Assembly (NCBI GenBank): GCA_016286575.1
Contig: JAEETB010000002.1
Location: 1-64,000, forward strand
Length of the DNA stretch: 64,000 nucleotides
Direction: 5' to 3'
Source: Prevotella sp.
Lineage (GTDB): Bacteria; Bacteroidota; Bacteroidia; Bacteroidales; Bacteroidaceae
Shown: positions 5,102-64,000 of the stretch, piece after piece
How positions within the stretch are numbered: position 1 is the first letter of the stretch
Layout of the letters: the number at the start of each line of letters is the position of its first letter
Translations under genes and position numbers: made by a program
Notes under the pieces: generated by a model
The model's database searches: none
Seen by the model: only the letters and a program-made list of their open reading frames with translations
Told to the model about the DNA's origin: nothing

Positions 5102-5103
5102 CA

Positions 5104-6416: not shown

Positions 6417-6421
6417 AAACT

Positions 6422-6456
6422 GAATCCCCTGCCGATTGGTAGGGGATTCGTTTTTT
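6422..6456. terminator. Rho-independent terminator between converging korC and GH2 gene
   Basis: gaatcccct-gccgattggt-aggggattc followed by gtttttt. Confidence 0.85.
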
Positions 6457-16665: not shown

Positions 16666-17050
16666 CCTCTCAAAATAAAAATCCCCGCCAACCGGCGGGG
16701 ATTTTTAATTATTACTCGTAAACCTTTCCAGAAACAGGTTTCTTATACCAGTCGGTGGAGGTGACAGAACTCTGTCCCCAGTTGTTGAACTCCAGATAGG
16801 CGTCCTTGATGCAGACTTTCTCCAATGGATATTTGAAGTCGTTAGGAATCATGATACCATGAGGATCCTCACCTCTTTTCGACAATTCAATTTTTACATT
16901 GTTTGTTGCATCGTTGATATAAGGTGCTGTATTAGGATCAGCGATGCTGAAATTCTTATCCACAGTCTTAGTCACTGTATATGCTGAATAAGTTGTGCCA
17001 CCCTTTTCGGTGTTAATGAATGTCTTGGTGTCTGTTACTCCGAAGAGACT
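16666..17050. repeat. Direct duplication copy B (3' end of intact LruC gene)
   Basis: Same as 15361-15745 at +1305 bp. Confidence 0.92.
16677..16706. terminator. Hairpin terminator of LruC paralog 2
   Basis: aaaaatccccgcc-aacc-ggcggggattttt. Confidence 0.8.
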
Positions 17051-31985: not shown

Positions 31986-31999
31986 AAGATAAAAGAGAT

Positions 32000-33140: not shown

Positions 33141-36100
33141 ATGAAGTTGAGATATATCATAATAAGCTATCTGATGCTCTTGGTTGCTACGGCAGTCAAG
33201 GCACAGATTACTATTGGTGGTAATGTCTATGGTGGCGGCAATGAGGGTGATGTCGGTGGTAATACTAAAGTCACGGTTCGAGCTGGCGACGTCCATCAAG
33301 TGTTCGGTGGTGCCCGTATGGCTGATGTGAAAGGCAATGCTTTTGTCAATATCGACGGCGAGCATGCCTCTGCCTATATTATTATTAATAAGGTATATGG
33401 CGGTAATGATATATCTGGAGAGATTGGTGATCCCAAGCAAGCTCAAAACCCTGTCAAAAAATTGCCTGTTGAGTTGGACATGGTAGCTACAAACAATATA
33501 ACCAAAGATTGGGATGCATTTGTAAAAATCTCTACCAAAACCGAAAAAGTTGAAGGCAAGGTTCAGGAGACTAGCAATGCCCAAAAGATCTATATCGGTC
33601 AGCTCTTTGGTGGTGGCAACGGTGATTACGACTATACCTCAAGTGGCACTTATAATGGTCTAAAAGCGCCTGATTTGCGTAAGACTTATCTCGAACTTTT
33701 GGGAGGCTCTATCGTCAATGTCTTCGGTGGCGGAAACGTGGCTACGGTGACAGAAGATGTCGTTATTCATTTGGATAATCCAAGCAAGGTGGTGAACCAT
33801 ATCAAAGTGAAAGACGGCAAAGAGGATGATGTCAATGGTACTGACCTGCTGACTGAAGATCGTTTCATAAAGATGGGTATTAACTACAAGTTCACCTATC
33901 CAAACAGCGCTTCCTTCCAGTTTGGAAACCTCTTTGGTGGCAATAACAAAGTAGATATGGCCATTCAGCCTAAGTGGAATTTGTTGGGCGGTATGGTGAG
34001 AAATCTCTACAGCGGTGGTAATGAGGGACGTATGACCTGTCCACAAGGTCTGTTGCTGCAAATTCCAGAAGAGTCTACTCTTATAGTTGACAATGTCTAT
34101 GGCGGATGCCGAAAGGCTGATGTGCGTCCGTTGGATGCTGCAGGCAAAGATGTGCCTAACGCGCAGATCCAGTTGGAGCCGAATCCAACAGGTATTCCTG
34201 CAGGCTTTTCAGCTCATACGAGAATTCTAGGCGGTAATATCAACAATGTCTATGGTGGTAACGATATCTCCGGCAATGTCTATGGTGGTAACACTGTGGC
34301 TATCCTGACTACGATTCATGGCAATGTGTATGGTGGCGGCAATGGCTCGTATGCCTATACCGACAACCCGGCATTGAAGGACGAACTCCTCTGGCGCGAC
34401 TTCTATTATAATCCTAAAGAGATATTGGGTTTAAGCGGTGATACTTTCACTGGCTTGCAGTCGGCAGAGGCCCTCAATAAGGTGCGCCCCAATGCTGAAC
34501 AGGTGTCCCTCCTTCTCCGAGGCACGGCAGATAAACCTGTTTTCGTCGAGGGCTCGGTCTTTGTGGGTGGTAACAGTGCATCACTGCAAAACCTGACAGA
34601 CATAGCCAATCGTCAGGCCCATGTGAAGATTGGATCGTATGTCACCATCGATAATCTGTTCCTTGGCAACAATGGTGAGAATATGGTAAAGACCGATGAG
34701 GAAGTACGTAACGAGGATGGTCTGGTTCAGTCAGAAGGTGTACTGCGGACTATAGCCAATACGACGATAGCAGGTTCTAAGTTCAACTCGATGGATTTGA
34801 CACAATCCGATGTCTTTGACAAGTACATGGAGGGTTGTGCCATGAAGGTGATGCCCAGCGTGGTATTCGACGATGTCGAGAATTACACACCATATTCCAG
34901 CCAATTCGGTTCCTTATACTGTGGCGGTAATGTGGGTAGTATGATGACTGATGGACTGACTGAAATTTCCTTTGTAGACAAGGCCATAATTTACGATAAG
35001 ATTGTGGGCGGCTGTAACAAGGCCAATGTTGATGCTGGAGAGTTCAATGCCGCCTATGAGGGTGGTCTTATCGGTGAGCCAGACAGCCACGGCGATAAGT
35101 TGAAGCTCAACTTCTCGGGTCTGAAGATCCAGCCCATGCGATGGAAAGATCCTAATGACAAGTCCAAGTTATTGGAGTGGAATACCGTAGTCTACAATGC
35201 CACAACGCAACAATTTGACAATGTAGAGAATGTTAAGCCTACTGAGCCAGGCCAAAATATAACAAGTACTGATGCCGATATTGTCCGTCGTCTGAAAGGC
35301 GGTAACCTCTACGGTGGTTGCTACGAGTCTGGTCATGTGAATGGTAATGTCATTCTCAACATCAACGAGACGCTGATGGAGCGTGATAAGCTCTTTGACC
35401 TCACAGATGAAGGAGATACCCTGTATGTGAATACTGAAAAGGGAAAATATACCATTACGAAGCGCAATACGGGTGTCATCCTCTCCGAACAGGGTATGGA
35501 CGTGCTTGGTGATGCACTTAATGTGTTCGGTGCTGGTTATGGTGCCGCCTCAGAGATATGGGGTAGTACCACCATTAATCTGAATAAGGGTTACGTGTTC
35601 CAGATCTTCGGTGGTGGTGAGATGGGTGCCGTCGGTAAGAAAGACGCAGACGGGAAGTATGGTAAAAAGAGGGCAGATGGAACTTATGGCCCAGATGAGA
35701 AGTACAGTACCTATATCAACCTGAAAGGTAGCGTTGCAGGTGTGTCGAGAGCTACTTCTTCCATTAACTCTGACATGGCAGAGTGTGAGTTTATCTATGG
35801 TGGTGCCTTCGAAGGTGTGATAGCAGGCGACATCCATATCAACCTCGGTAATGGCCGTATCTTTAACTCCTTTGCAGGTAGCTGTAATGCCGATGTCCTT
35901 GGTCATACAGAGACTTACATAGGTCGCAATGGTGTGGATGCAAATGGCAATGATATTGCAGGTTTCCCATGGATCCGTGACCACCTCTATGGCGGAAACG
36001 ACCTGGGAGGCCGAATTTTAGGAGATGCAAAATTCTCTTCCCGTATCCGTGACGATGTGAAGGGTATGGTAGCTGGCGACTATGGTGTTTCATCTTATAT

Positions 36101-44747: not shown

Positions 44748-44775
44748 ATAATAATCATTTAAAATATTGAGCATT

Positions 44776-46143
44776 ATGAAAAAGGTAATGAAAAGAATGT
44801 TTCTGGTCGCCGTGCTGCTGATGGCATGCGTGGTGACGAAGGCAGAGGTAACGGTCGAGTTCGCTCGTGAGTTCACTGCAGAGACTGGTGGTACAATTAC
44901 GGTAAAGGGTCAGGCAGCCAACGCCACTGATGCTACCAGCACTGATGTTACCATTACGGTGACACCAGCCAAGGACTTTTTTATCACCAAGAATGACATC
45001 AAAGTCTATCTGACTGTTCCTGCCAGCACACGTTCGGTAGATTTTGAGAATCTGCTGACACTTAGTGGTGATGAGCCGAAGGACAAAATGGCTGCCCGTG
45101 ACTATACCTTCACGGTGCCTGCAGGCTTCGGTGCCATCATTTATGAAGCCGATTTCCAGTCAGCTGATGCACTCTACAACATCGGTGATGATTCGAAATC
45201 AGGTTCGGTGAGATGGTCGTTGAATGAAGAGAAGACGGTCATGACCATTGCCGGTACCGGACGTACCAAGGATTTCAGTCTCGGCAGTGCAGACTTTGTG
45301 GATCCGTTCGAGGCATTCAGAGCAGAAGGCTCTACCGTTAAGTCGATTGTGATCGAAGCTGGTGTCACTGCTCTTGGTGACAACATCTTCAGCGGCTTTG
45401 TAGGCCTGACCAAGATTTCCATCTTGAATAACAGTGCTTTGTTATCGCTTGGCAAGGAAGCCATCAATACGAGTGGCGTGTCTGTCGAAGTTCCCGGCAA
45501 TCTTTACAATGAGTATAAGATCACCGAGGGGTGGAGTGGTCTGACTATTGCCCCTGCTGAGGGATCTGTGGAGATGGCTATTACATTCGATAACAGTAAC
45601 TCCTATAGGGCATTTGTTAACAGTGCACAGAGTCTGATGATTCCAAGTGTGCTGAAGGCATGGGTTATCTCTGGACTGAATGCTAGCGGCACATCGTTGG
45701 AACTGTCTGAGGTGAAAGACATTCCTGCCAATGTTCCCGTCTTGCTTACGGCCTCCGGCAAAGTCAGCGATGGTTTCTATACCTCATCTGTCGCTTCAGC
45801 CGCCAGTTCAGCAGGCAAGTATCTGAAGGTTGCTCCTGAAGGAGGACTGACCGTTGGCGCAGGTCAGGTATATCTGCTTTACAATGACCGTTTCTACTTC
45901 TCTCAGGCCGGAACCCTTCCAGCCAACCGTGTATACCTGGATATGAGACAGGAACCAGCAGCCAAGACCCGTAGCAGTATCGGCATTGGTGACGATGGCA
46001 CAACGGCCATCCGTCGCATCGAAGGCGAGAACAAGCTGATCGACAAAGCCGGATGGTATACCCTTGATGGCCGTCAGCTTCAGACGATGCCAACTCGCAA
46101 GGGTGTGTATATCAATGATGGTAAAAAAGTCGTGATTAAGTAA
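44776..46143 (+). CDS. Secreted protein with shared N-terminal domain and T9SS-like C-terminus
   Basis: Signal MKKVMKRMFLVAVLLMACVVTKA; 'TVTPAKDFFITKNDIKV'; C-term 'GWYTLDGRQLQTMPTRKGVYINDGKKVVIK'. Confidence 0.85.
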   Translation: MKKVMKRMFLVAVLLMACVVTKAEVTVEFAREFTAETGGTITVKGQAANATDATSTDVTITVTPAKDFFITKNDIKVYLTVPASTRSVDFENLLTLSGDEPKDKMAARDYTFTVPAGFGAIIYEADFQSADALYNIGDDSKSGSVRWSLNEEKTVMTIAGTGRTKDFSLGSADFVDPFEAFRAEGSTVKSIVIEAGVTALGDNIFSGFVGLTKISILNNSALLSLGKEAINTSGVSVEVPGNLYNEYKITEGWSGLTIAPAEGSVEMAITFDNSNSYRAFVNSAQSLMIPSVLKAWVISGLNASGTSLELSEVKDIPANVPVLLTASGKVSDGFYTSSVASAASSAGKYLKVAPEGGLTVGAGQVYLLYNDRFYFSQAGTLPANRVYLDMRQEPAAKTRSSIGIGDDGTTAIRRIEGENKLIDKAGWYTLDGRQLQTMPTRKGVYINDGKKVVIK

Positions 46144-47168
46144 TGTCTCGCAAGATGACGATAGTACAAAGCTTAGGGCGGCTGTTACTGACAGCGCTGC
46201 TCATGGTGTGGAGTCTGGGAATGACTGCGCAGAAGGTTAGCGTGGTCACCCAGAAGTTCAAGGGCGGTACTGTCGAGGAGAAGCCTGGCCAGACAGAAGA
46301 AAAGGACGGTAGTGTCACGGTTACGCTGACCGTGACCCCCGATCCAGGCTACATGATCTCGAAGGACGACATCAAGGTGGTGGAAACCATCTCAGCCGAT
46401 GCTGAGACCCGTGCCGATGCTGAGATCAAGCTAGGCAATCCTTTGCCATTGGAGGGCGATGATCCCGATGACCTCACCAAAGAACGAAAGTATACGGTGA
46501 AGGTGGAATCGCCGTTTGGCATCTATGTCAAGGAGGCCAACTTCAAGCTGAAGGATGCCGTACAGATCGAGGCTTCTGTCTTCTCCAAGACGAGCGAGGA
46601 GAGTACTGAACAGGCCGCTATGTTCAATCCACCAACAGACCTGGGCTTAGCCGAGGGCTTGAAAGCCTATATGGTGGTAGGCGTCAATACGGACAAGGGA
46701 AAGGTCGAACTCCAGGAAGTGAAGTACTTGCCCAAAGGTCTGCCACTGCTGTTGATTGCCGACGATCCTGGCGAAGGCTTCATTTTGGAGCCGAAGTCTG
46801 ATAAAACGTCTGAAATCAAAGACGCTGATAAGGCCAGCAACCTCCTGCGGATAGGCTCGGAAACCGTACAGCCCAAGGCCTTCGAAGATTATATCTTCTA
46901 TAAGGGCCGGTTCGTGATGGTCGACGGCGGTAAGCTTGCTGATGGCAAGATGTTCCTCGATCTCAATCAGGAGCAGGCCGCCAAGACGCGCGGTGTGCTC
47001 GGTATTGGCGGTGATGATTCCGGCACCACAGGTATTGCCGATGTGGAGCGTGCTGCGCGATCTGCTCACGACACCAGCTGGTACACCCTCGACGGCCGCC
47101 GCCTCACGACGCCCCCCTCCCGCAAGGGCATCTATATCCGAAATGGAAAAAAAGAGGTCTTTAAATGA
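46143..47168 (+). CDS. Secreted protein with shared N-terminal domain and T9SS-like C-terminus
   Basis: TAATG 1-nt overlap with previous gene; 'TVTPDPGYMISKDDIKVVETISADAETRAD'; C-term 'SWYTLDGRRLTTPPSRKGIYIRNGKKEVFK'. Confidence 0.85.
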   Translation: MSRKMTIVQSLGRLLLTALLMVWSLGMTAQKVSVVTQKFKGGTVEEKPGQTEEKDGSVTVTLTVTPDPGYMISKDDIKVVETISADAETRADAEIKLGNPLPLEGDDPDDLTKERKYTVKVESPFGIYVKEANFKLKDAVQIEASVFSKTSEESTEQAAMFNPPTDLGLAEGLKAYMVVGVNTDKGKVELQEVKYLPKGLPLLLIADDPGEGFILEPKSDKTSEIKDADKASNLLRIGSETVQPKAFEDYIFYKGRFVMVDGGKLADGKMFLDLNQEQAAKTRGVLGIGGDDSGTTGIADVERAARSAHDTSWYTLDGRRLTTPPSRKGIYIRNGKKEVFK

Positions 47169-47291
47169 GAGTAGGAAGGATTATTCTCGATAAGGTATCC
47201 TTAAGTGGGTAAAAAATGGTAGTTAAGGATGAGTTATAAATGATTTTATTAAGTTCGTGGATAGTAATAATGGCCCAGGACTAAAGTTTAG

Positions 47292-50200: not shown

Positions 50201-50870
50201 GGAAAATAGTAACTACAGTGGAGGTGCCAAGATTATTTTTGTGAAAGCTGACTTTCCCACAGCAACTGACCCGAATAGTGGTGGGGCTGTATCCGCCTAT
50301 CAGGCTACTACTGATTTGGCAACTCCTCCAGGACTGACTGCTTATATTGTAACAGGTATTAACTTGGGTACAAGTACTGTGGAGGTGAAAAAGGTAGATT
50401 ATATACCAAATGGAAAACCTGTTTTGCTTCTGACAGATGAGGGGGATCCTCATGACGCAGATTTTACAACCTCGTTGGTAGAGGGTGTGACTGATGAACA
50501 GCGTAATACTGATACAGAAGGTAATTTATTGAAGATCTCTACAAGTGCAGAACCTGTTGCCTGTGACTGGGGACAGTATTACATTTTCTCTAAAGGTGAG
50601 TTTGTTCTCTCTATGGGTGGAAAGACAATGATGGAAGGTTTGTTCTATTTGGATAATAGCGAGTATAGTTCTGGAGGTGGATCAACACGAAATCCTAGTA
50701 TACTCCACTTGTCAAGGGGTGCTACTACAGTAATAAATGGTGTCGTCAGTCAGAAAGAGAAGGATTCAAGGTCTTCTGTATGGTATACCATTGACGGACA
50801 GAAGCTTAATCAGAAACCTACCCGCAAGGGAATTTATATATATCATGGTCATAAAATAATTATAAAGTAA
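47292..50870 (+). CDS. Large secreted multidomain protein (1192 aa) with chitobiase C-terminal-like repeats and T9SS-like C-terminus
   Basis: 'TIYYTTNGDDPT', 'VIKYTTSTTDPSTIYDD' (CHB_HEX_C_1-like); 'VWYTIDGQKLNQKPTRKGIYIYHGHKIIIK'. Confidence 0.85.
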   Translation: MMKMKTYRMTLKRMMMTVLMMLTVSAMSAEQKIWLRYSSGGKAKISLDGKGLELDKENKATVKDAAGLKVAVTATPDDGYTVSSVTAQLSVTLDDGNSKTRGADDASFLEVTKESDTEYVFTMPDAGYNVVVNVNFTVESSRKGGDLSGITIKGGDFSGTYFIKSVSVNKETTDDYYLCPTEGWVYYTGTNSFTEEDNGQPFLTTYPCKSIEGYNATKALWKIEKSGNYYTIKHVIDGKYMVYNGQISDANANRIRVHLADVETLGENELFVIGTNTAGNIVISPKNASTNYFNVCQGNIKDLAGSTKYKVKAKNDGPTTPTNHKNDIHGTIGLYTDINDSNAPFILEDYITRPTIDYDVSDNNKIIITNKTTSLSGTIYYTTNGDDPTLEASTRSSFTDASKTIDSFTDGTIIKAVAKVGNDYSNVVTFTSFVHVGNSNQYLIQTVDGGSFYMVPPITTETKVTTTNIPHEKMAWYFDYVGQEWGIQYYNIVNVKTSSYLYCSGSKGSDGAFKLKEDSETDANRYTFVFVSSGDGVNVIPNIHFAETTGMCMSKKNGNNATDNLNLSDGTDNNSRWKFVALPSDSDPKTLFDRSFASTSSGYKSYEIQSASATTTHLVPPATVGGNLTANTTGDNPVWSFEDTGESDTWISYYYLRNRTTGNYVFFDGTAGQDNGSTFFTSATITSGSEDKFKFIVVKATNGTSYNIIPKLLKDQANQTKNSLSKTSTTELKTLNSRAVEASLWNLVETNTFTVLPPTIAYGTGVVSMSSVTPGAVIKYTTSTTDPSTIYDDANKPAYADDAQIYIKALAAVGNNTSSDVTFIKNPDVNFTEGFDFSYTGSAIEPTVSSVTVTPEGGSAITIDETEYEIAYSNNTNVGKATITISDALPANNLIISGISEFDITKRSLGDGTTAADGIVITVTKVEDTPISYTVTVKNGTSITLVEDTDYTLNDVTSDASGYRATITAVENSNYSGGAKIIFVKADFPTATDPNSGGAVSAYQATTDLATPPGLTAYIVTGINLGTSTVEVKKVDYIPNGKPVLLLTDEGDPHDADFTTSLVEGVTDEQRNTDTEGNLLKISTSAEPVACDWGQYYIFSKGEFVLSMGGKTMMEGLFYLDNSEYSSGGGSTRNPSILHLSRGATTVINGVVSQKEKDSRSSVWYTIDGQKLNQKPTRKGIYIYHGHKIIIK

Positions 50871-50872
50871 GA

Positions 50873-53800
50873 ATGGAAAAATATTCACTTGATATGAGTA
50901 AAAGAAGATATATAAGTATTTTATTTACGTTACTGATTTTCCTCTTGAGTGGAGTTACTCAGGTGTGGGCTGTTGTTGATGCAAATTCTATAAAGATCGT
51001 TGTGACACCTCCTGGTGGAGATTCACCAGATTATGGCATGGTAGTGAAAGAAGTTGTTCCGACTAGTGGCGACAATAAGGTAACACTAACGGCTACTCTA
51101 GGAGCTACTCATACTATTTCAAAAACAAATATCATTGTTCAACCAGTTACAGACCCCAGTCAAACCCGAGCTCCTGGTATAGCTTCGGAACTGGAAGTCA
51201 TGGACGGAACATCACCTAATGAATTTTATTTCATTTTACCCGCAAGATATGACGGTGCCATTGTGACTGCAAACTTTATTTCGACAGAAGCTACAGAGAT
51301 TGATGATTTAAGTGGGATTACCAATCAGTTTGGAAACTATAAGTTTAGTTCAACCTTCTCTCCTTCTAAAACCCCAGCAGATGGTATAGGAACTTCAACT
51401 AAACCTTTTAGAGGTTCTCTACAGGGCTATATTGATGCAAGTGGAGAGATTAAGGTGATTAGTTTGTCTAAACCATTGTTTGACTATGTGAAGGATGCAA
51501 CTATTAAGAATATTGTTGTGGAAGGTACGATTAGTGGTTCTGGCAATGTGGGTGCTATTGCTGGAAATGCTTTAGGAGCTTCGCGCATCTATAACTGTGG
51601 TGTATTGGCCACAGGAAGTACTGTAGAAAAAGACGAAGATGGTTATGATAAGATTACCTCGTCCAGTAGTTCCGTTATTGGCACCAACTATGTAGGTAGT
51701 ATTGTGGGTTTGCTTGACGGCAGTTCGCGTATCATCAACTGCTATAGTTATGCCAATGTTTCCGGAGGTAATTATGTAGGTGGTATTGTGGGTTATAACA
51801 ACGTTGCTACCACTGCCAGCAACCTTCAGACGATGGTGATGAACTGCATGTTCTATGGTGAAGTCAGTGGTTCTTCGATAGCTCCCATATACAACGGTGA
51901 GATTATCACCAACGATGGCGATGCAGACGGCGTTAACAACTTCAACTATTTCCGCCTAGAATCATCTTACATTCAGGATAACACTATTACCAAAGTATAT
52001 AACTGTGCCCTTGGTGCCGAGACACGTTTCCTGCAGCGATTCGAATTCTACCGCCATTTGCTGAATAGTAACCGTGAATTGGCTGCTTGGTGGGCTACGG
52101 GCGATGCTGACAATAAGGACGAGATGATGAAATGGGTATTGGAGCCTAGCCAGATAGGATCCTCCACACCCTATCCTATCCTTAAGACTCCAGATAAATA
52201 TGCTTCGGTGGTCAATTATACTCCCAGCACGACAGCCTACGATGAAGCAAACCGCAACAAGGGACTTAAACTGACTCGCGAAGGCGACGGTGGTGTGCTA
52301 CAAGTTACCATACAGATGGGATCTACTAAATTCTCTGCCCCGTCAAGTGCTGGCTTTAAGTCTGGTGTAACAGGCAGTTTTGATCTCACCATTACCGATA
52401 AGGATTTTGAGCATTTCAATTATAACTACGGTAAGGTGCAATTGCCCTATTATAATGATTATTGTGATGGTAACTATACAGGAAACCGCGTGGTTACCGG
52501 CTGGAAGATTATTAGTATCACGGGTGGCACGGCGGGAAGTTACTCTACCGGAGATGATGTTACCTACAATGACAAAGGTGAATTGACAGCAACACCCTAC
52601 AACTTTGCCGACCGCAAATGTAAGAATAAAGACCTTTACTCCGAAAGTGGCCGTGTTTTCAACCAAGGTGCCTACTGGGATGTTCCCGAAGGGGTGACTG
52701 CCATCACCATCGAGCCTTATTGGGGTAAGGCGGTTTATCTGTCCGATGCCTACTGGGATGTGACCTATAAGAATGGTACTGGAACTGATCTCACTAAAGC
52801 CGGATCTACAGAAGATGCCATGACTACTGCCGCCAATGTCACTACCGTCGGCGGAGGTAAACACTATGAAAACGGCAAGAAATATAATCTTGCTACCCGT
52901 AGTCGTGATGATGCTGGTCAGATTGTCTATACTTCCATGAGCAATGCTATCTCAAGTAATGGTTCTGCACTTTTTTCGGAGAGTGTTACGAATCCCACCG
53001 TTTATGATTATGCTGTGGTGCTTGTGGGTAATTATCATCATACTGCTGCCATAGAAGCAAATAAGAACTATACAGTTACCTCTATTGACCTTGATGGCGA
53101 CAATGAGCCGGACTATTCTCTCATGCTTCGCTTTAACGGCCGTCTGGCTTTCCATCCTGTAAAATACGATTTTCTGAACCTGATAGGCCTCGGTATGGCA
53201 CAGAAGACCACCGGCGGCACAGGTTCATACAATCTTGGTATCATGCAGCCCAAGGCTTGGTTCGAGGTGACCAACACCGCCCTTTTCCGTGTTACTCAGT
53301 TTGAATACGATAAGGGTAGGACAAAGAGTCCCTATATCTTACAGGGAGGTGTTATTGAGCAGTGGGTTACCCAACAGGACAATGCCGGAGATGGGGTAAG
53401 TTACTTCCACATAGGAGGAAATGTATGGTTCAAGGAATTCCACAGAGGCTCCCACCAAGATAATGCTAACAAGAGCACTCCTCACCCCCCCTTGTCTGTC
53501 ACTGGCGGTGATTTCTCTAAGTTCTACCTTACAGGCTATTATCAGTCTCAGGCCACCATTTACGATGATAATGCCGAGTGCTATATCAACGGAGGTCGCT
53601 TCGGAGAGATTGCTGGTGCCGGTATGGAAGGTATTGGTACTTCAGATAGCAAAGGCAACATTACCTGGATTATTGATAATGCCGATATCAAGGAGTTCTA
53701 TGGCGGTGGAATCAACCATGCTAAACCTGTGCATGGTAATATTCACACCATCATCAGCAACAGCCATGTGGATGTTTTCTGCGGTGGTCCCAAGTTCGGA

Positions 53801-56800
53801 AATATGGCGGCTGGTCGCACTGTCACCACTTCTGCCACCAACTGCACTTTTGGCACTTATTTCGGTGCAGGCTACGGCGGTAACTCCTACAGCCGCGACG
53901 CACCGAGAAACCACAATAATATATTAAACTTCCCCCATAACGATAAATCTGCTGGTAACCACACTTCTTGGAACAACTGGTTGTCGGATAAATACAAGCA
54001 GAGCTATGTTGCCAATAAAGGTGGTATATCCACCCAGTTTGACTATCAGTTCTTGCCAATGTCGAGCAACACTGATAATGTGGCACGTATTTTTGTCGAT
54101 TATGTCGCCTTCTCATTGGCCACTTGTCATAACGTCACTTCTTCTTTGACAGGTTGCACCATTACAGGTCATTTCTATGGTGGTGGAAGTTTGGGAAAGG
54201 TTGATGGAAATGTTACCTCAACGCTTTCCAACTGCAAGGTAAATGGCAATGTATATGGGGCAGGCTATTCCGCTTCTTTGCCAACAGTCGATGTGATGAG
54301 TGTTGGTTTCCAGACTGAACCTTATTATTATACAGACCTCGGTACTTATCGTAAGGGAGTCTTCCCTGCAACTACCCCTTATACTTGGCAACATGGCGCT
54401 GCCATCAGTGTCGACAATGTAAATCATATCCTTTATACCACAGAAGACCTTGATGCCCTTGGCACGGTTGAGGGTAAGGTTACGTTGAACATTGAGGGAG
54501 AAAAGACTTCTGTCACAGGAAATATTTATGGAGGCGGTCAGTCGAGTGATGTGTATGGTGTTAACACTTCAAATGAAATTACTAGTGAAGTTGAGATAAA
54601 TATCAAGGATGGCTCGATGACCGATGTCTATGGTGGTGGTGAAGGTAAAAACACTATAGTCGGTGGTAATGTAGTAGTTAATATTGGTGCAAAAGCCACA
54701 AATGGAGATCTAAGTGGAAATGCTATTATTTCTGGTAATGTATATGGTGGTAGTGCCCTTGGTGCTGTGAATGCATCATCTACAAAAGATGAAAATGGCG
54801 ATGTTGCTAGTTATGTGCCACTTTCAGGAAAAACAACGGCAGTTAATATTTATGGCTGTACTAGCATTGCTAACGTCTTTGGTGGTGGATTAGGCCAATT
54901 GGAAAGTGGTACATCGGGACAGCCTAATTATAAGCCTTTCATTGCTGCTCAGAACTTCGGTGACGTGACGGTTACTATGGAAGGCGGAAAAGTCAGTACA
55001 GCCATCTATGGCGGTAGCAATGAGAATGGTGTGCTGAAAGGCAAGGCTACAGTGACACTAAAAAACGGAACAGTAGGAACAGCAGTGACATCAGGAGACC
55101 CAAACAACGTGGTCTTTGGTGGTGGTAAAGGTCAACCCACACTTGTAGAAGGTGATGTGGAAGTAAACATCGGAGAAACTACTCAGACTGAAGGTGGCGC
55201 AACTATTAATGGTAGTGTCTATGGTGGTTCTGCTTTGGGTAATGTGAATGCGACGAAGAATGGAACTGCAGTAGAAAGTACAACAAAGCAGGATCCTGCT
55301 TATCCAACGGATCCCACCAAGACAATTCCAACAGAGACAACCGTTACACTGAATAGGGGTACTGTCGGTGGTGATATTTATGGTGGTGCCCTTGGTTATT
55401 TACATACAACGTCTGAAACAGAAAGCGATGATGTTGCTGCTAACGTATATGGCCCCGTAACGGTCACAGTCAATGGTGGTACAGCCCGAAATGTGTTCGG
55501 TTGTAATAATAAATTAGGTACACCGAAGAACACGGTAGCTGTGACAGTTAACGGAACGGCAGCCCATATTGACGAAGATAATACAACCACTCCAGTAACT
55601 CCTGCCGTGTTTGCTTTGGGTGCAGTTTATGGCGGTGGTAATGAGGCTCATTATGTGCCAACGGCCAGTGGAGTTGAAGCACCTGTTGTGACCATCAACG
55701 GTTGTGCTAGTAGTATCGAATACGTCTATGGCGGTGGTAATGCTGCCAACGTACCAGCTACCAGTGTAACTGTCAATGGCGGTATCATCGGCTACGTCTT
55801 TGGTGGCGGTCATGGCGACAAGAATGCCTCTCCGGCTACTGAGGCTAATGTGACGGGTGTTGTCGATATTGACATTAATGGCGGTACCATCAGTTACATC
55901 TTTGGTGGTAGTAACAGTAAAGGAACTATCGGCGGTGATATAACTTTGGATATAAACAAGACAGGTACCTGTGCTATGAAAATTGCTGAGGTGTATGGCG
56001 GTGGTAATGAGGCAGACGGTAAGGCTGCCACTATTACCATTGGTTGCACGGGCGATCTCGTTACTGGTGATGATGGACATGCATCACATCCAGAGAATAT
56101 CGGTACCACTTTGGAAGGTATTGGAGCACTCTATGGCGGTGCCAACAAAGCCGATGTCGGTACAGCAGAAGCGGCCTCAAACATCACGCTGAACATCAAT
56201 AGTGGTATAGTTGCTAATGTGTTTGGTGGTAACAATACCAGCGGTACGATTTATGGTACAATCGAGGTTAACATTAATAAGACTTCTGAGGCTTGTGGCT
56301 GGTATGTGGGCAATGTCTTTGGCGGTGGTAATAAGGCTGAGTATAGTGGCACTCCTACTGTCAATATCCAAAATGGTAAGGTGAGCCGAAATGTCTATGG
56401 TGGTGGTAACGAAGCTGGTGTAGGTGGTTCGAAAGTAGACATGACTGGCGGTATTGTGCTGGGCAATGTATTCGGTGGCTGTAATACCAGCGGCACAGTT
56501 TCTGGTGATACCCAGGTGAATGTTACTGGCGGCACAATAGGTGAGGGTAGTATTACAAAAGATACTAACGGCAAAATTACAGCGTTTAGTCGTACTACAA
56601 AGGGTAATGTCCATGGTGGTGGTTATGGTAAGGACACTTACGTGAAAGGGAATGTAGAGGTGAATATTGGAAGTGCGACAACCGTTTCTTCAACAACTAC
56701 ATACAGTGGAACAGCAGAAATCTATGGCGATGTCTATGGTGGTGGCGCTCTGGGACATGTGAATGCTTATCTGGATGGAACGACGCTTACATACAGTTCA

Positions 56801-59800
56801 GATAAAACGACTACCGTCAATCTGAATAAGGGTACGATTTATGGTGATGCTTACGGTGGCGGTCTTGGTGATGCAAATAATGCTGCATACGTTGGTGGTA
56901 CTGTGAACGTGAATCAGAATGAGGTGGCTTATATTATTGATTATGAAAATACTACAGATGTAGATCCAACAGACCCAGACCCAACTAATCCAACCAAATT
57001 TATACAGGTGGTGAAGAGTGGTCGTATCTTTGGCTGTAACAATCTGAATGGTTATCCTTTGGAAAATGTTACAGTGACAGTTAATAAGACTGTTGCGGGT
57101 AATGTCACGAGAACCTCGGGTACTTTAGATCATACTAAGTTGGCTGATGATCCCAGTCTTTCTTATGAATTGGCAGCTGTATATGGCGGTGGTAATCTGG
57201 CTTCATTTACAGCGACAAACAAGAAGACAATTGTTCTTATCAAGGGTTGTGATGATACCAGCATTGAGACGGTCTATGGCGGTGGTAATGCCGCTGCCGT
57301 TCCTGAGACGGATGTGAAAGTCCAGAGCGCATACGAGATAGGTTCTGTCTTCGGCGGTGGTAATGGTAAAGACAAGTATTACAATGGTACAACATGGGTG
57401 GCCAATCCTGGAGCCAATGTCAGTGGCGATGCTCACACCGTGCTGTATGGCGGTATCATCCATGAGGCATACGGTGGAAGTAATAAAAAAGGTACCATTT
57501 CTGGCAATATTACCATTGATATGTCAGATACTCATCTTAATGGAGACAATTGTGATCTGCACGTTGGAAAGTTTGTGGGTGCCGGTAAGGATGCCGATGC
57601 CAATGGTGTGAAGATGATCGTTGGCTGTAAACCCAGTCAAAAGACTCCTATTATTTATTTTGGTGCTGATAATGCCAATATCAATGGTGATGTGGAAGTG
57701 ACTATCACCAGCGGTAACTATGGAAAGGTGTTCGCTGGAAATAACGCAGGGGGTGCTATCTTAGGAAAAATCATCTTGAATATTGAGGAGACTGGCAATT
57801 GTGAAACTCCCATCACTATCGATGAACTCTACCTTGGTGGTAACGAGGCTGCTTATTCTGTCTATGGCTATTATAAGGACGCTACTGACGGCAAATTGTA
57901 TCCAATAGGTAAAGATGGAAAAGACAAAGATGGAACAGCAAGAAAGCCTGTGAGGTGGGATAGCACTACCGAACAATATGTCGAGATTTCAGGAACAGGA
58001 AATGATACATTCACACCATACGCCGATCCGATACTGAATGTCATTTCTTGTACCAGCATCGGCCAGATATTTGGTGGTGGCTATGGAGAAGGTGCTGTTA
58101 TGTATGCTAATCCGACGGTGAATATTAACATGATTCCAGGGTCAAAGGCTACACTCATAGATCTTGACGGTGACGGTAATCCAGACAACGATGCCACAGC
58201 TTTGGGTGCTATCGGCAATGTCTATGGCGGTGGTAATGCTGCAGATGTCATTGGTAATACGACGGTCAACATCGGTACGGAGACAACCATCAGCATGAAT
58301 ACCGAACCGGCTCATCTTGGCGAGGGCAAATATACCTATAATACGGAAACTGGTAAATATGATGGCGTCGCTGTCATAGGTGCCAATATTACTGGCAATG
58401 TGTTTGGTGCTGGTAAGGGTTCGGAAACCGATGTCACTAAGGCAATGGTATCAGGCAACAGTATTATCGTTATGAAGGGCGGCTCGGTGAAGAAGAGCGT
58501 CTATGGCGGTGGCGAGCTGTCGCAGGTGGCAGGTAATACAGACATTACCGTTGCTGGCGGTACCATTGGTACGCCCAATGAAGGCAGTACAGTGTACGGC
58601 GGTGCTACGTATGGTAATGTCTATGGTGGTGGTCAGGGTAATACCACAACTCCCGATGCTGGTCTTATCAAGGGTAATACCAAGATTACAGTCCAAAACA
58701 CTGTTGTAGATGAGAACACGACTATAACCCCCAACATCTTACATAATATCTATGGTGGTGGTGCGTATGGTTCGGTTGGAACAATTACCCGTGATGCTAA
58801 TGGTGCGACCTATGTACCTGGAAGAACTACTAATATTTTGAACATGCCTACAGCTTGGGCAAGGAAATCAGGGAATACAGGCACTGACACAGGAAATACG
58901 GAAATTTATATCAACGGCGGACAAATCGGTACAAATGGTAACGAGAATGGTATGATATTCGGTTCGTCGCGTGGTGATGTTTCCACACCTTATGGTGCAA
59001 ACGCAGAAAATCCTTATGGCACAGATGTAGACAAGAACGACCGCTTGGCTTGGGTATATGATACTAAGGTTGTAATCGGTCAATCGGGTAATCCAGACAT
59101 CAGAGGCTCTGTCTATGGTAGTGGTGAGAACGGACATGTCTTTAACAATACTGATGTACAGATTCATAACGGAAAGGTAGGTATTGATGATACAGGGAAA
59201 ATTACCGATCCAGTGACTAATATCGAATATACGGGCGCCGACTATCCTAAACGTGGCAACGTCTATGGTGGCGGTTGCGGTGAGGATGATTATACCGTCT
59301 CTGGTGTAAAATATTTCAACCCATTGGCAGGTATTGTGCTTGGCGATACAAAGGTGACCATTGATGGCGGAAAAGTCGTCCATAATGTCTATGGTGCCGG
59401 TGCTTTAGGTTCTGTAGGTGGTAAGACCACCATCGAGATTAGTGCAGGTCAGGTTGGTGACGATGGCGTGGGTGATGGTGATGTCTATGGTGCTGCCCGT
59501 GGTAAAGTGGGTCTCACTCAAGAGAACATCGCACAGGTTCGTGAAACGAGTGTTACCATCTCGTCGACTGCTGATGTCAAGGCAAGTGTCTATGGTGGTG
59601 GTGAGGCCGGTAATGTCAGAGAGAACACGGCTGTCAGTATGACTGGAGGTACCGTTGGCGAGAATGTCTATGGCGGCGGTAACTTAGGCTACGTGGGAAC
59701 TTTTACTACTTCGACGAATACAGGAACTGGAAGCACGGAATATATTTTTACAGATACTGAAGGTAACGCCAATACCACTGCCAATAGTGACAACAAGAAT

Positions 59801-62800
59801 ACTGGTGTTTGTACTGTTACAATTTCTGGCGGTAAGGTGGGCCCTGATACTCCGACGGAGACCAAACCCGGTAATGTGTTCGGAGCTGGCAAGGGTTCTT
59901 CAGAAACATTCGAGTGTGAGCCCGCTATGGTATATAGCACGAATGTCATTATCAGCGATGGTATTGTGAATGGTACTGTCTATGGTGGCGGCGAGGTAGG
60001 CCGAGTAGAAAACAACACGGTGGTAACAATAGGAACCCAAGGAGAAACGGATGGGTCTAATAAGCCTGATATTAAAGGTAACGTTTTCGCTGCTGGTAAG
60101 GGTCTCAACACACATGGATATTCGGCTCTGGTTCGTGGCGACAGTAAAGTGACGGTTCAGGGTATAGCCCATGTCGGACACAGTGTCTTTGGTGGTGGTG
60201 AGATTGCTACGGTGGGTAGATATGTGGTCGTAGATAATCTGCCGACAACAAACACCAGTGGTGGTGATTGTATCGTAGAAATCAAAGGCAATGCCCATAT
60301 CGCAGAAGATGTCTATGGTGCCGGTAAGGGGGTTCTGCCTTATGAAGGGTATACTTCTTCAGAAACTCCCTGGAGTAAGACGTCCACTGGTTCTACGCAA
60401 TATACAGATGCCAATCGAGCTGACTACTTTAAGTATATTACTACGCTGGCTATAGTCAGTGATACCCATGTGACTGTGACAGGAAACGCTACTGTTGGCG
60501 GTTCCGTCTATGGCGGTGGTCAGAAAGGTTTTGTGCAGACAGATACTGATGTGGAGATTCAAGGTTCTTGCGCGATTGGCACGGCTAGTACGACCACGGG
60601 AGGTAACGTCTTTGGCGGTGGACTGGGTGATGCTTCTGTTGCTGGTTATGCAGAGGCAGGCCGTGTGAAGGGAAATACCAACCTCGAAGTCAGCGGTGGT
60701 AATGTGTATGGCAACGTCTATGGCGGCGGTAGCTTGGGCGACGTGGGTACCATTGTCAAGAGTGCTGATTATAATTATAAGTGGACTAACGAGACCAATC
60801 CCAGTGAGACTTACACTTACAACAATACCGGACTTTGTACTGTTGAAATTAATGGCGGTATCATAGGTGTTGATAATCCTACAAACGCTTCTGAACATGG
60901 CAATGTGTTTGGAGCTGGTAAGGGTAAAGACGACACCTACTGGTGTGAGAAGGCCATGGTGTACAAGACAAATGTCACAATTAATAAAGGTACAGTAAAA
61001 GGTAACGTTTATGGCGGTGGTCAGATTGGCCGCGTGGAAAATAACGCGGTGGTAACGATAGGACCGGCTTCAGGAGATGATGTTGCTGATATCAAAGGTA
61101 ACGTATTCGGAGCAGGTGCAGGTTTGAATACTCATGGCTATTCGGCATTGGTACGTGGTAACGCTACCGTCACTGTTCAGGGTAAAGCCCAAGTTGGACA
61201 AAGCGTCTATGGTGGTGGTGAAACAGCATCGGTGGGAAGATTTGTTGTAAATACCGAAACGTCATTACCAACAGAACCGCTAAGTGGTGGAACATGTACC
61301 GTCACAGTCAATGGTGAAGCCGCAATTACGGGCAATGTCTATGGAGCTTGTAAGGGAATCACTCCTGATTATGCTAATGCTACCATACATTGGAAGAATG
61401 ATAATAAGTCGCATAATTTTGATGATGAGGCTGATTACCTTAAGTTCCTTAAAACACTGGCCTTAACCAGCAATACCGATGTGACCATCGGTGGTAGTGC
61501 TACTATTGGTGGTGATGTCTATGGCGGTGGACAGAGAGGTATTACCTTAGGTTATGTGGAGGTCGATGTGACTGGCGGTACCATTACCAAAGATGTTTAT
61601 GGCGGTGGTGCTTTGGCAGACACGAACACCAGCAATTGGGATGGGTCGTCATTAACAGCTAAATATTATGAGGTTACTGGCCTCACTGTTGGAACGTCTG
61701 TTGTAACAGGTTTGTACACAAAGAATGGCGATAAATATACGGCGGCTACGGGTACGGCTCAATCAGGTATCAAATATTATAGGTTGACAAATACCAAAGT
61801 TAGTCTGATGGGTGGAAAAATCCTAGGTGCAGCCTATGGTGGTGGTTTAGGTCAAAAGACTGGTGTGGATAATGCAACCAGTGATGTTGAGGCTATGGTC
61901 TATGGTGACGTGCTGGTTGACCTGAACGGAACGACAACCATGAGCGACGGAAAAGCTACAGTTAATGGTGTGGCGACGACGTATGCCGCGGGTTGTGTCG
62001 TTAATGAAATATTTGGTGGTAATAATGTTAACGGTTCACCGAAGGGTGACGTGATGGTGCATGTTTATGCTACTCAGAATAAGAATGAGGAAGATATTAT
62101 AACAAAGGATGCGGGTAATTACGATGTGACAGCCGTGTATGGTGGTGGTAATCAGTCTGCGTACGTGCCTGCAACGGCTTATCATCCTACGAATGCTCCA
62201 GCCGGTTCAAAGACCCAAGTTATCATTGAGGGATGTAGCACGACCAGTATCGAGAACGTCTATGGTGGTGGTAATGCTGCTGCTGTGCCAGAGACGAATG
62301 TGGAAATCAGATCTGCTTTTGAAATCTACAACGTCTTCGGTGGCGGTAATGGATATAGTGCCACAAAGAATCACACAGATCCCACGGCAGCCAACTACAA
62401 TCCTGGTGCTGATGTTGGTACTCTTGACAAAGGAACATCGACATATGGTACAGGTAACGCTAATACGTTATTAATAGGTGGTCATATCCACGAGGCCTAC
62501 GGAGGTAGTAACCAGGAGGGTAAGATTATGGGTAATGTCAACATCAATACCAATCCAAAGGATGAATCTGAGGACGGTTACTGTGCTCTGAATGTCGAGA
62601 AGTTGGTTGGTGCAGGTAAGAATGCCGATGTCGATGGCGACTTGATTATGATTCTGGGTTGTAAGCCAACCACGAAGACTCCGTTAGTCTTTGCCGGTGC
62701 CGATAATGCCGACGTGAATGGTAACGTGGAACTGACGATTACCAGTGGAACGTTCGGACAGGTATTTGGTGGAAATAACCTGGGTGGTGTCATCAAGGGA

Positions 62801-64000
62801 CATATTAAACTGAATATCGAGGAGACAGGGTGTAACCCAATCCGTATTGATTCACTCTATCTTGGCGGTAATCAGGCTGCATACTCAATATATGGTTATT
62901 ATAATAAAGGAACGGAAGAGAATCCTGATCTTCAGCCAAGAACGGCTGAGATGGAGGCTGTAGGCAGTTCTAATCCTGGTTATATTGCGCCTGTAGGGAA
63001 TCCTTCCAATACTGACGGGAAGCATCCGTTCCCATACGCTCAGCCTGTGCTGAATGTAATTTCTGCCACCAGCATTGGAAAGGTGTTTGGTGGTGGTTTA
63101 GGTGAGGGTGCTGTTATGCATGCTGACCCGACGGTGAACATCAATATGATTCCGGGTGTATTTGCTACTCAGGAATTAGGTGGTCCTCATAAGCTTGGTA
63201 CAATCGGTGATGTCTATGGCGGTGGTAATGAGGCTGTGGTTTATGGTAAAACGACTGTAAACGTTGGAACGGCAGAAACAGTAACGATGACCTCCGTTAG
63301 TGACGATGCAACGACAACAACAGTTGATGAGAGCAAGCCATATGTCGAAGGTGCTCGTATTGTCGGTAATATCTTCGGTGGCGGTAATCAGGCTAATATC
63401 GAAGGCAGTACCGAGGTTAACATCGGTACGATGACCTATGCAAATGAAAATTATGAGGGCGTTAGTATCAAATGCTTGGAGAACAATGCTGAGCATCCAG
63501 ATAACGAAGAGAAGACTGGTATGGTATTCGGTGGCGGTAATGCAGCTGATGTGACTGGTAATACAGTCGTCAACTTTGCTGGTGGTTATGTGGAGAACCG
63601 CATCTATGGTGGTGGTAACTTAGGATCGGTAGGAACATTTACCAAAAATACTGCAGGAAAGCCTGATTCTTGGACATCAGGCGGTAAGTGTACAGTTACT
63701 GTCAGTGGCGGTAAGTTGGGTAAGGACAATATGAAGATGCCTGACGATTTCGGCTATGTTTTCGGAGCCAGCCGTGGTGAGGTAAGAGATACTACCGTAG
63801 CAGAATATGCAGATCTTCGATTTAAGACTTATGTTAAAGAGACCGAGGTGGTTATCAAGGGTGATGCCTTTATTCTTGGTGGTGTCTATGGTGGTAGTGA
63901 GAATGGCCATGTGCGTGGTGATACATGGGTGAAGATTCAAGGTGGCCAGATTGGTTGTGGCACGGGAACGACTATACCTTATGATGAAACAAAGTTTATT
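50873..64000 (+). CDS. Giant secreted GGN-repeat protein 2 (>=4376 codons, 3' end beyond window)
   Basis: ATG 50873 MEKYSLDMSKRRYISILFTLLIFLLSGVTQVWA; frame spot-checked at several points and at the window end (..VKIQGGQIGCGTGTTIPYDETKFI); all + strand ORFs listed by the track here lie in another frame; dense VYGGGN repeats; GLUG-like motifs near 51.5-51.8 kb. Confidence 0.9.
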   Translation, partial: MEKYSLDMSKRRYISILFTLLIFLLSGVTQVWAVVDANSIKIVVTPPGGDSPDYGMVVKEVVPTSGDNKVTLTATLGATHTISKTNIIVQPVTDPSQTRAPGIASELEVMDGTSPNEFYFILPARYDGAIVTANFISTEATEIDDLSGITNQFGNYKFSSTFSPSKTPADGIGTSTKPFRGSLQGYIDASGEIKVISLSKPLFDYVKDATIKNIVVEGTISGSGNVGAIAGNALGASRIYNCGVLATGSTVEKDEDGYDKITSSSSSVIGTNYVGSIVGLLDGSSRIINCYSYANVSGGNYVGGIVGYNNVATTASNLQTMVMNCMFYGEVSGSSIAPIYNGEIITNDGDADGVNNFNYFRLESSYIQDNTITKVYNCALGAETRFLQRFEFYRHLLNSNRELAAWWATGDADNKDEMMKWVLEPSQIGSSTPYPILKTPDKYASVVNYTPSTTAYDEANRNKGLKLTREGDGGVLQVTIQMGSTKFSAPSSAGFKSGVTGSFDLTITDKDFEHFNYNYGKVQLPYYNDYCDGNYTGNRVVTGWKIISITGGTAGSYSTGDDVTYNDKGELTATPYNFADRKCKNKDLYSESGRVFNQGAYWDVPEGVTAITIEPYWGKAVYLSDAYWDVTYKNGTGTDLTKAGSTEDAMTTAANVTTVGGGKHYENGKKYNLATRSRDDAGQIVYTSMSNAISSNGSALFSESVTNPTVYDYAVVLVGNYHHTAAIEANKNYTVTSIDLDGDNEPDYSLMLRFNGRLAFHPVKYDFLNLIGLGMAQKTTGGTGSYNLGIMQPKAWFEVTNTALFRVTQFEYDKGRTKSPYILQGGVIEQWVTQQDNAGDGVSYFHIGGNVWFKEFHRGSHQDNANKSTPHPPLSVTGGDFSKFYLTGYYQSQATIYDDNAECYINGGRFGEIAGAGMEGIGTSDSKGNITWIIDNADIKEFYGGGINHAKPVHGNIHTIISNSHVDVFCGGPKFGNMAAGRTVTTSATNCTFGTYFGAGYGGNSYSRDAPRNHNNILNFPHNDKSAGNHTSWNNWLSDKYKQSYVANKGGISTQFDYQFLPMSSNTDNVARIFVDYVAFSLATCHNVTSSLTGCTITGHFYGGGSLGKVDGNVTSTLSNCKVNGNVYGAGYSASLPTVDVMSVGFQTEPYYYTDLGTYRKGVFPATTPYTWQHGAAISVDNVNHILYTTEDLDALGTVEGKVTLNIEGEKTSVTGNIYGGGQSSDVYGVNTSNEITSEVEINIKDGSMTDVYGGGEGKNTIVGGNVVVNIGAKATNGDLSGNAIISGNVYGGSALGAVNASSTKDENGDVASYVPLSGKTTAVNIYGCTSIANVFGGGLGQLESGTSGQPNYKPFIAAQNFGDVTVTMEGGKVSTAIYGGSNENGVLKGKATVTLKNGTVGTAVTSGDPNNVVFGGGKGQPTLVEGDVEVNIGETTQTEGGATINGSVYGGSALGNVNATKNGTAVESTTKQDPAYPTDPTKTIPTETTVTLNRGTVGGDIYGGALGYLHTTSETESDDVAANVYGPVTVTVNGGTARNVFGCNNKLGTPKNTVAVTVNGTAAHIDEDNTTTPVTPAVFALGAVYGGGNEAHYVPTASGVEAPVVTINGCASSIEYVYGGGNAANVPATSVTVNGGIIGYVFGGGHGDKNASPATEANVTGVVDIDINGGTISYIFGGSNSKGTIGGDITLDINKTGTCAMKIAEVYGGGNEADGKAATITIGCTGDLVTGDDGHASHPENIGTTLEGIGALYGGANKADVGTAEAASNITLNINSGIVANVFGGNNTSGTIYGTIEVNINKTSEACGWYVGNVFGGGNKAEYSGTPTVNIQNGKVSRNVYGGGNEAGVGGSKVDMTGGIVLGNVFGGCNTSGTVSGDTQVNVTGGTIGEGSITKDTNGKITAFSRTTKGNVHGGGYGKDTYVKGNVEVNIGSATTVSSTTTYSGTAEIYGDVYGGGALGHVNAYLDGTTLTYSSDKTTTVNLNKGTIYGDAYGGGLGDANNAAYVGGTVNVNQNEVAYIIDYENTTDVDPTDPDPTNPTKFIQVVKSGRIFGCNNLNGYPLENVTVTVNKTVAGNVTRTSGTLDHTKLADDPSLSYELAAVYGGGNLASFTATNKKTIVLIKGCDDTSIETVYGGGNAAAVPETDVKVQSAYEIGSVFGGGNGKDKYYNGTTWVANPGANVSGDAHTVLYGGIIHEAYGGSNKKGTISGNITIDMSDTHLNGDNCDLHVGKFVGAGKDADANGVKMIVGCKPSQKTPIIYFGADNANINGDVEVTITSGNYGKVFAGNNAGGAILGKIILNIEETGNCETPITIDELYLGGNEAAYSVYGYYKDATDGKLYPIGKDGKDKDGTARKPVRWDSTTEQYVEISGTGNDTFTPYADPILNVISCTSIGQIFGGGYGEGAVMYANPTVNINMIPGSKATLIDLDGDGNPDNDATALGAIGNVYGGGNAADVIGNTTVNIGTETTISMNTEPAHLGEGKYTYNTETGKYDGVAVIGANITGNVFGAGKGSETDVTKAMVSGNSIIVMKGGSVKKSVYGGGELSQVAGNTDITVAGGTIGTPNEGSTVYGGATYGNVYGGGQGNTTTPDAGLIKGNTKITVQNTVVDENTTITPNILHNIYGGGAYGSVGTITRDANGATYVPGRTTNILNMPTAWARKSGNTGTDTGNTEIYINGGQIGTNGNENGMIFGSSRGDVSTPYGANAENPYGTDVDKNDRLAWVYDTKVVIGQSGNPDIRGSVYGSGENGHVFNNTDVQIHNGKVGIDDTGKITDPVTNIEYTGADYPKRGNVYGGGCGEDDYTVSGVKYFNPLAGIVLGDTKVTIDGGKVVHNVYGAGALGSVGGKTTIEISAGQVGDDGVGDGDVYGAARGKVGLTQENIAQVRETSVTISSTADVKASVYGGGEAGNVRENTAVSMTGGTVGENVYGGGNLGYVGTFTTSTNTGTGSTEYIFTDTEGNANTTANSDNKNTGVCTVTISGGKVGPDTPTETKPGNVFGAGKGSSETFECEPAMVYSTNVIISDGIVNGTVYGGGEVGRVENNTVVTIGTQGETDGSNKPDIKGNVFAAGKGLNTHGYSALVRGDSKVTVQGIAHVGHSVFGGGEIATVGRYVVVDNLPTTNTSGGDCIVEIKGNAHIAEDVYGAGKGVLPYEGYTSSETPWSKTSTGSTQYTDANRADYFKYITTLAIVSDTHVTVTGNATVGGSVYGGGQKGFVQTDTDVEIQGSCAIGTASTTTGGNVFGGGLGDASVAGYAEAGRVKGNTNLEVSGGNVYGNVYGGGSLGDVGTIVKSADYNYKWTNETNPSETYTYNNTGLCTVEINGGIIGVDNPTNASEHGNVFGAGKGKDDTYWCEKAMVYKTNVTINKGTVKGNVYGGGQIGRVENNAVVTIGPASGDDVADIKGNVFGAGAGLNTHGYSALVRGNATVTVQGKAQVGQSVYGGGETASVGRFVVNTETSLPTEPLSGGTCTVTVNGEAAITGNVYGACKGITPDYANATIHWKNDNKSHNFDDEADYLKFLKTLALTSNTDVTIGGSATIGGDVYGGGQRGITLGYVEVDVTGGTITKDVYGGGALADTNTSNWDGSSLTAKYYEVTGLTVGTSVVTGLYTKNGDKYTAATGTAQSGIKYYRLTNTKVSLMGGKILGAAYGGGLGQKTGVDNATSDVEAMVYGDVLVDLNGTTTMSDGKATVNGVATTYAAGCVVNEIFGGNNVNGSPKGDVMVHVYATQNKNEEDIITKDAGNYDVTAVYGGGNQSAYVPATAYHPTNAPAGSKTQVIIEGCSTTSIENVYGGGNAAAVPETNVEIRSAFEIYNVFGGGNGYSATKNHTDPTAANYNPGADVGTLDKGTSTYGTGNANTLLIGGHIHEAYGGSNQEGKIMGNVNINTNPKDESEDGYCALNVEKLVGAGKNADVDGDLIMILGCKPTTKTPLVFAGADNADVNGNVELTITSGTFGQVFGGNNLGGVIKGHIKLNIEETGCNPIRIDSLYLGGNQAAYSIYGYYNKGTEENPDLQPRTAEMEAVGSSNPGYIAPVGNPSNTDGKHPFPYAQPVLNVISATSIGKVFGGGLGEGAVMHADPTVNINMIPGVFATQELGGPHKLGTIGDVYGGGNEAVVYGKTTVNVGTAETVTMTSVSDDATTTTVDESKPYVEGARIVGNIFGGGNQANIEGSTEVNIGTMTYANENYEGVSIKCLENNAEHPDNEEKTGMVFGGGNAADVTGNTVVNFAGGYVENRIYGGGNLGSVGTFTKNTAGKPDSWTSGGKCTVTVSGGKLGKDNMKMPDDFGYVFGASRGEVRDTTVAEYADLRFKTYVKETEVVIKGDAFILGGVYGGSENGHVRGDTWVKIQGGQIGCGTGTTIPYDETKFI

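Follow-up and report, generated by a model that had tools for sequence, protein, structure and literature searches.

The window analysed here, a stretch of 64,000 nucleotides from Prevotella sp. (contig JAEETB010000002.1), contains a type V-pilus-like operon whose distal half may encode a giant T9SS-dependent solenoid fibre, stacked end to end and accessory to the pilus, a reading that we consider evenly balanced. For the distal genes, designated A to E, we infer a function as a surface system, and judging from the sequences their products may be assembled jointly with the pilus. The joint reading draws on conserved gene order, on the co-occurrence of A with the E-N region of protein E, on all-beta structure models, and on T9SS tails together with a sortase. 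It draws further on the C-termini of the E family (90 of 105), coil-first protein starts, the split pieces of E, the presence of D-like and E-N regions in the same ORF, dN/dS values and the precedent of Mfa5.

Organization of the locus

From the DUF3575 gene (20804..21403, +), the first gene of the fimbrial operon, through E, all genes lie on one strand with gaps of at most 44 bp, apart from 123 bp between C and D. Seven lipoprotein-type ORFs are located between the DUF3575 gene and A. Giant protein A (33141..44747, +; 3,868 aa) carries a signal peptide, GGN coils and a type-A-like CTD. It is followed by secreted protein B (44767..46143, +; 458 aa; TTG start, with an alternative ATG at 44776), secreted protein C (46143..47168, +; 341 aa), which has the same architecture as B, and secreted protein D (47292..50870, +; 1,192 aa), with a lectin-like region and a short T9SS CTD. 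Giant protein E (7,864 aa) occupies 50873..64000 (+) within the window and ends at 74467 in contig numbering, about 340 bp short of the contig end at 74811.

The first-pass annotation had placed five secreted genes behind the fimbrial genes, on the same strand and with short gaps. This arrangement was borne out, with 10 bp between the last fimbrial gene and A, 19 bp between A and B, an overlap of B and C, 123 bp between C and D, and 2 bp between D and E. The ORFs of A to E were confirmed as real, those of A and E being intact; E, which is cut by the window, was completed from the contig. All five proteins have signal-peptide-like N-termini by sequence. The source of the window is a metagenome-assembled genome (MAG) of 478 contigs.

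Upstream of the operon, an AraC-type (HTH_18) regulator with a TPR region (18763..20484, +; Pfam HTH_18 4.3e-12) is separated from the DUF3575 gene by 319 bp; that it belongs to the system is uncertain. A Bacteroidales promoter pattern gave two matches in the window, no more than chance predicts and neither of them at the operon, while sigma-70 and terminator scans remained at chance level; these scans do not delimit the operon. Two paralogous lipoprotein-like genes are located upstream on the opposite strand (13305-15209 and 16712-18610, both −), the second of which matches DUF4842 and DUF4114.

Fimbrial genes

The DUF3575 outer-membrane protein, a criterion for a type V pilus operon, was recognized clearly (PF12099, 151.9 bits; cut-off 21.1). 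Behind it lie fimbrillin-like lipoprotein 1 (21415..23574, +; lipobox IISC), with a relative in the syntenic genome G018, and an Mfa2-like anchor lipoprotein (23593..24870, +; lipobox VVSC), which reached 20.5 bits with PF08842, just below the cut-off of 21.2. Fimbrillin-like lipoproteins 3 (24880..26673, +; LTGC), 4 (26695..28752, +; LSSC) and 5 (28797..30728, +; MSGC) follow; number 4 has a 58% identical relative in the syntenic region of G032, and number 5 has relatives in both G018 and G032. The FimA/Mfa1-like lipoprotein FimA6 (30750..31985, +) matches NF038041 (6.7e-8) and the FimD tip adhesin (1.2e-7), both under the curated cut-offs. Lipoprotein 7 (31979..33130, +; VVGC) is the last fimbrial gene, and its relatives immediately precede A in six genomes (G018, G032, G162, G107, G074 and G141).

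A lipobox was found in six of the seven fimbrial ORFs by pattern matching rather than by a dedicated predictor, FimA6 being a near miss (LCLSC). None of the window's fimbrial lipoproteins carries a fimbrillin or anchor domain above the curated cut-off: P_gingi_FimA scored 21.0 bits (cut-off 21.4), and the Mfa1 family model NF038041 scored 32.2 bits (cut-off 130), with only 19.4 bits for lipoprotein 3. The large fimbrillin-like lipoproteins matched no family and no solved structure in the family and PDB sequence searches. The earlier likening of the operon to a type V pilus holds only in part: the DUF3575 match is clear, whereas the likeness to Mfa2 and Mfa1/FimA stays below the cut-offs and the large lipoproteins are familyless.

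Two further features of these genes were observed. The Mfa2-like protein (23593-24870) has a long proline-glycine linker of the PGPDPGP type ahead of its C-terminus. In many relatives (G561, G155, G583 and others), the frame that holds the DUF3575 match is 420-620 codons long instead of roughly 200, and this length suggests a fused second domain.

Distribution and gene order in related genomes

Among 300 genomes of the same genus, A was present in 81 and E-N in 66, and 61 genomes had the two together (p = 8e-40). Of 66 genomes checked, 55 have a DUF3575 gene 6.9-16 kb upstream of A, in the same orientation; these 55 are related and do not represent 55 independent events. Since a genome of about 3 Mb mostly has only one to five DUF3575 genes, this position is far above chance. 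Several of the 15 A loci lacking an upstream DUF3575 gene begin only a few kb from the edge where their contig starts and are therefore uninformative about its absence. The suggestion that GGN giants co-occur with DUF3575/FimB operons was accordingly upheld across the genus.

Fimbrial-type genes directly before A, followed by E, were found in G018, G032, G162, G107, G074 and G141, and the gene order fimbrial genes-A-(B/C/D)-E recurs in several genomes. In G074, the region downstream of E (C2:131978-141264) contains, partly on the other strand, relatives of genes at positions 1106-5874 of the window, which lie upstream of the operon; the chromosomal surroundings have therefore been rearranged.

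A less probable reading than joint assembly, although one to be taken seriously, is that the two halves are merely neighbours: an ordinary type V-like pilus and co-inherited T9SS adhesins that do not physically assemble together. This would agree with the 20 genomes that have only A, the 5 that have only E-N, and the 34 of 78 E-N loci that have no A within reach (some of these loci being truncated), as well as with a tree in which A-linked and A-less E-N sequences are mixed. The A-only genomes and A-less loci indicate that A and E-N are not obligate partners. However, the recurrent position of DUF3575 upstream of A and the spacing of 10 bp between the last fimbrial gene and A argue against mere neighbourhood, as does the known case of Mfa5, which is encoded in a fimbrial operon and secreted by T9SS (PMC8313007).

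Outside the genus, E-N was rare: in a sample of 395 genomes of the order it occurred in three genomes besides the window's own, from two other families. A scan of 85,488 species genomes yielded 306 relatives, of which 78 distinct loci were kept, all from Bacteroidota. Ruminant sample sets (cows, sheep, goats) gave their names to 58 of the 78 loci, a predominance that may be a sampling bias because these sets are large. Two of the relatives are named isolates, Prevotella sp. tc2-28 and the rumen commensal Xylanibacter brevis ATCC 19188, which has a simple version of the system with an E of 2,662 aa. The same architecture was found in the near-closed genomes G660 (2 contigs, with a frame of 8,245 aa) and G141 (1 contig), and proteins of the family reach about 8,300 aa.

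Repeat motif and predicted fold

The strict motif [VI][YF]GGG was found 81 times in E (shuffled mean 0.37, maximum 3) and 9 times in A (shuffled mean 0.08, maximum 2); with the looser GGN motif, 114 and 27 occurrences were counted, respectively. The description of both proteins as giants made of GGN repeats therefore stands as far as the motif is concerned, but the repeats are confined to residues ~29-1971 of A, whose C-terminal half is free of them, and ~1,127-7,837 of E. The alternation of VYGGGN turns with strands, which had also been proposed, fits the DSSP assignment of the predicted model; the coils themselves are very divergent, with identities of ~24% between coils and ~20% between adjacent ones. 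Owing to this divergence, TRF reported only two short arrays in 30000-64000.

AlphaFold2 (AF2) modelling of E residues 2441-2900 (58193..59572, +) from 31 aligned sequences gave a nearly all-beta structure with a pLDDT of 89.2 and a pTM of 0.90. The E-N region (52163..54652, +), modelled from 48 sequences, was likewise all-beta (pLDDT 84.0, pTM 0.88). Disorder of the GGN region, which would have spoken against a fibre, is thus contradicted by a prediction of ordered beta structure. Foldseek searches with the GGN model returned no match at E <= 0.001 (lowest E-values 0.39 in PDB, 0.21 in BFVD), and the E-N model had none at that threshold in PDB, the top weak match being Antigen 43 (4kh3; E = 0.003, TM 0.10). 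Neither model therefore has a significant structural match to a solved beta-solenoid or beta-helix, although beta-helical proteins are numerous among the weak ones. From the DSSP assignment, the repeat pattern and the class of these weak matches, each GGN unit is most simply read as one coil of a predicted beta-solenoid.

For perfect repeats, a bias of AF2 towards beta-solenoids is documented (PMC11795689). Together with the missing Foldseek match to a known solenoid, this bias means that the coil geometry is not established; the low identity of adjacent coils lessens the concern and does not remove it. Both the bias and the 478-contig source would fit a quite improbable explanation, namely that the giants are an artefact of repeat-driven misassembly of the MAG combined with solenoid over-prediction. 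Against it stand the same architecture in many independent genomes, including G660, G141 and the isolate X. brevis ATCC 19188, the purifying selection described below, and the divergence of neighbouring coils.

Searches of Pfam and NCBIfam gave no family for the GGN part and nothing usable for E-N, and PDB sequence searches gave only chance or very weak matches. No description of the motif or of the giant Prevotella proteins was found in a small set of searches of the open-access literature. Within these databases and searches, the earlier characterization of the system as a candidate undescribed one is sustained.

Secretion signals of proteins A to D

Mature A begins with a GGN coil right behind its signal peptide (QITIGGNVYGGGN). 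Its C-terminus matches TIGR04183 up to the last residue with 19.5 bits, under the cut-off of 23, and the GxY-K/R CTD pattern was found in 47 of 55 A ORFs. Judged by its tail, A is T9SS cargo with a type-A-like CTD, at a TIGR04183 score below the cut-off. No PDB sequence matched A at E <= 1, and hence this search gives A no sequence homology to Mfa5.

One N-terminal domain is common to B, C, D and E. Proteins B, C and D also have a C-terminal domain in common, which is ~200 residues long and has a short CTD behind it. Their tails of 43-55 aa consist of a TTGI-like cleavage site, WYTLDGR, KGxYI and a basic end. The tails of B and C were caught by a pattern compared with the motifs of short-CTD T9SS cargo in Prevotella intermedia (Ye et al. 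2025, PMC11969387); the tail of D was missed by this pattern and read by eye. In comparison with that cargo, the tails are alike and the cargo domains different. Protein D contains a ricin-B-lectin-like region (PF14200, 1.1e-11) and Fn3_assoc (PF13287, 6.8e-5), and 45 ORFs combine D-like regions with E-N.

The PorU sortase (NF033707) was found in the genome of the window itself (G000:C376) and in all seven relatives searched.

Architecture of protein E and its split forms

Protein E consists of a signal peptide, the N-terminal domain shared with B to D, the strongly conserved E-N region (residues ~431-1200) and more than 110 GGN coils, the last element being a GGN coil. The dN/dS ratio of E-N was 0.11-0.17, which indicates purifying selection. 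Long-range internal repeats occur at offsets of ~1,650-1,900 residues; these emerged from blastp only after E had been sliced, as whole E against itself gave none.

The C-termini of the E family are uniform, with 90 of 105 proteins ending 20-29 residues past the last GGN; 6 of the 15 outside this range look mis-registered by the pattern. Two signatures recur, GADIRGNVYGGGNxAEVTGNTNVxIGKxxE in the final E piece and EGNTxVxGNVFGGGDxGxVEGSTxVNIE in the E-N piece. Within the last 400 residues of E, neither TIGR04183 nor TIGR04131 was matched. T9SS-like tails had been ascribed to the complete proteins, and this is accurate for A (type-A-like) and for B, C and D (short); it is wrong for the giants as a group, since E, like its relatives, lacks a recognized tail and ends in a coil. 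This raises the question of how a giant with no C-terminal signal leaves the cell.

One answer, which we regard as improbable, would be that the conserved last coil of E is no docking surface and instead acts in secretion or sorting, as an unrecognized signal that forms a third class next to the type A and type B CTDs. The narrow signature shared by 90 of the 105 proteins and the absence of both TIGR models from the last 400 residues would agree with such a role. However, similar coils occur many times within E, which is unlike a signal, and the last coil does not have the GxY and basic end motifs arranged as in known T9SS CTDs (PMC11969387, PMC12618676).

In many genomes, E is present as several separately exported, coil-bounded pieces. 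The A proteins and most downstream pieces without E-N open with a GGN coil just past the signal peptide; exceptions include those of G008, L102 and L162, which are longer and have different N-terminal regions. Where E is split, the E-N piece terminates near residues 1271-1304 of the E in the window. In G018, L114 and L135, the following piece begins close to that position, whereas it begins far along E in L147 and L158 (~2900) and in G096 (~5890), so that the pieces do not always adjoin cleanly. Taken together, the coil-bounded ends, coil-first starts, split pieces and ORFs containing both D-like and E-N regions suggest that the E pieces may be modules associating end to end.

Proposed assembly and comparison with known systems

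In the proposed joint assembly, T9SS would carry A to the surface, where its C-terminus would be linked to LPS with the N-terminal GGN coil pointing outward. The tail-less E would dock through its last coil, which would stack onto A, whose first coil is free, or onto a further piece of E, and the fibre would grow through such end-to-end stacking. E-N and the lectin-like D would be located at the far tip and bind to a surface, which might be that of plant fibre or of neighbouring cells. The fimbrial lipoproteins would carry or anchor the assembly, comparable to Mfa5 with the Mfa1 fimbriae of Porphyromonas gingivalis. Still more tentative is the proposal of a new class of surface fibre, defined by an undescribed beta-solenoid fold of divergent GGN coils, non-covalent stacking of coil ends, an A anchor with a T9SS tail, and export of E without a known T9SS signal. 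The possible new part of the system is its fold together with the logic of the chain ends.

The nearest functional precedent is provided by the Mfa1 fimbriae, in which Mfa5 is the T9SS-secreted tip protein and the last gene of the mfa operon (PMC8313007). Both operons end in a T9SS-tailed exported protein and contain an Mfa2-like anchor and FimA/Mfa1-like lipoproteins, the window's fimbrillins being below the family cut-offs. In contrast to Mfa5, A is 3,868 aa long and has no detected VWA domain, and B, C, D and E (7,864 aa) are encoded behind it.

SprB of Flavobacterium johnsoniae is, like E, a very large repetitive surface protein of Bacteroidota exported by T9SS, a route that is putative for E. 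SprB carries a type B CTD, and the gene for the SprF shuttle lies next to its own (PMC12618676), whereas E has no TIGR04131 match and no SprF/PorP-like match was found among the scanned genes of the window, with ~340 bp after E covered. The autotransporter beta-helix adhesins Antigen 43 (4kh3) and UpaB would share with the modelled proteins an elongated, potentially self-associating beta structure; no T5SS translocator was seen at the locus, and the TM-score of 0.10 is not meaningful.

The family is present in 22-27% of the sampled species of one gut genus and has neither a family model nor a structural relative. The system connects T9SS cargo with type V-like pili on a scale undescribed in the literature searched, and it raises the question of whether solenoid ends serve as docking surfaces. 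Rumen colonization by such bacteria matters for the use of plant fibre by livestock.

Inserted genes and variant arrays in relatives

Stand-alone genes for AAA-ATPase/PDDEXK, Virulence_RhuM or YhcG (DUF1016) proteins were observed in several relatives, located between A, E-N and E pieces on the same strand. Examples of inserted genes are L059:2938-4122 (−), L074:3515-5658, L074:13089-13931 and L061:14179-15300. The A/E array in these relatives behaves as if it were a repeated insertion target.

Such nuclease-like genes, together with the great size and the repeats, could recall polymorphic toxins or contact-inhibition systems, in which the repeats would be a stalk for a variable C-terminal effector. 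We consider this very improbable: the inserted genes are separate ORFs, none was seen in the window, and the reading is largely refuted by the E C-termini, where conserved coils stand in place of a variable effector domain.

At five loci with no A within upstream reach (L118, L122, L125, L148 and L155), at least two tandem E-N proteins of ~1,100-1,250 aa are followed by a coil-rich protein. These tandem loci possibly represent a separate branch of the family.
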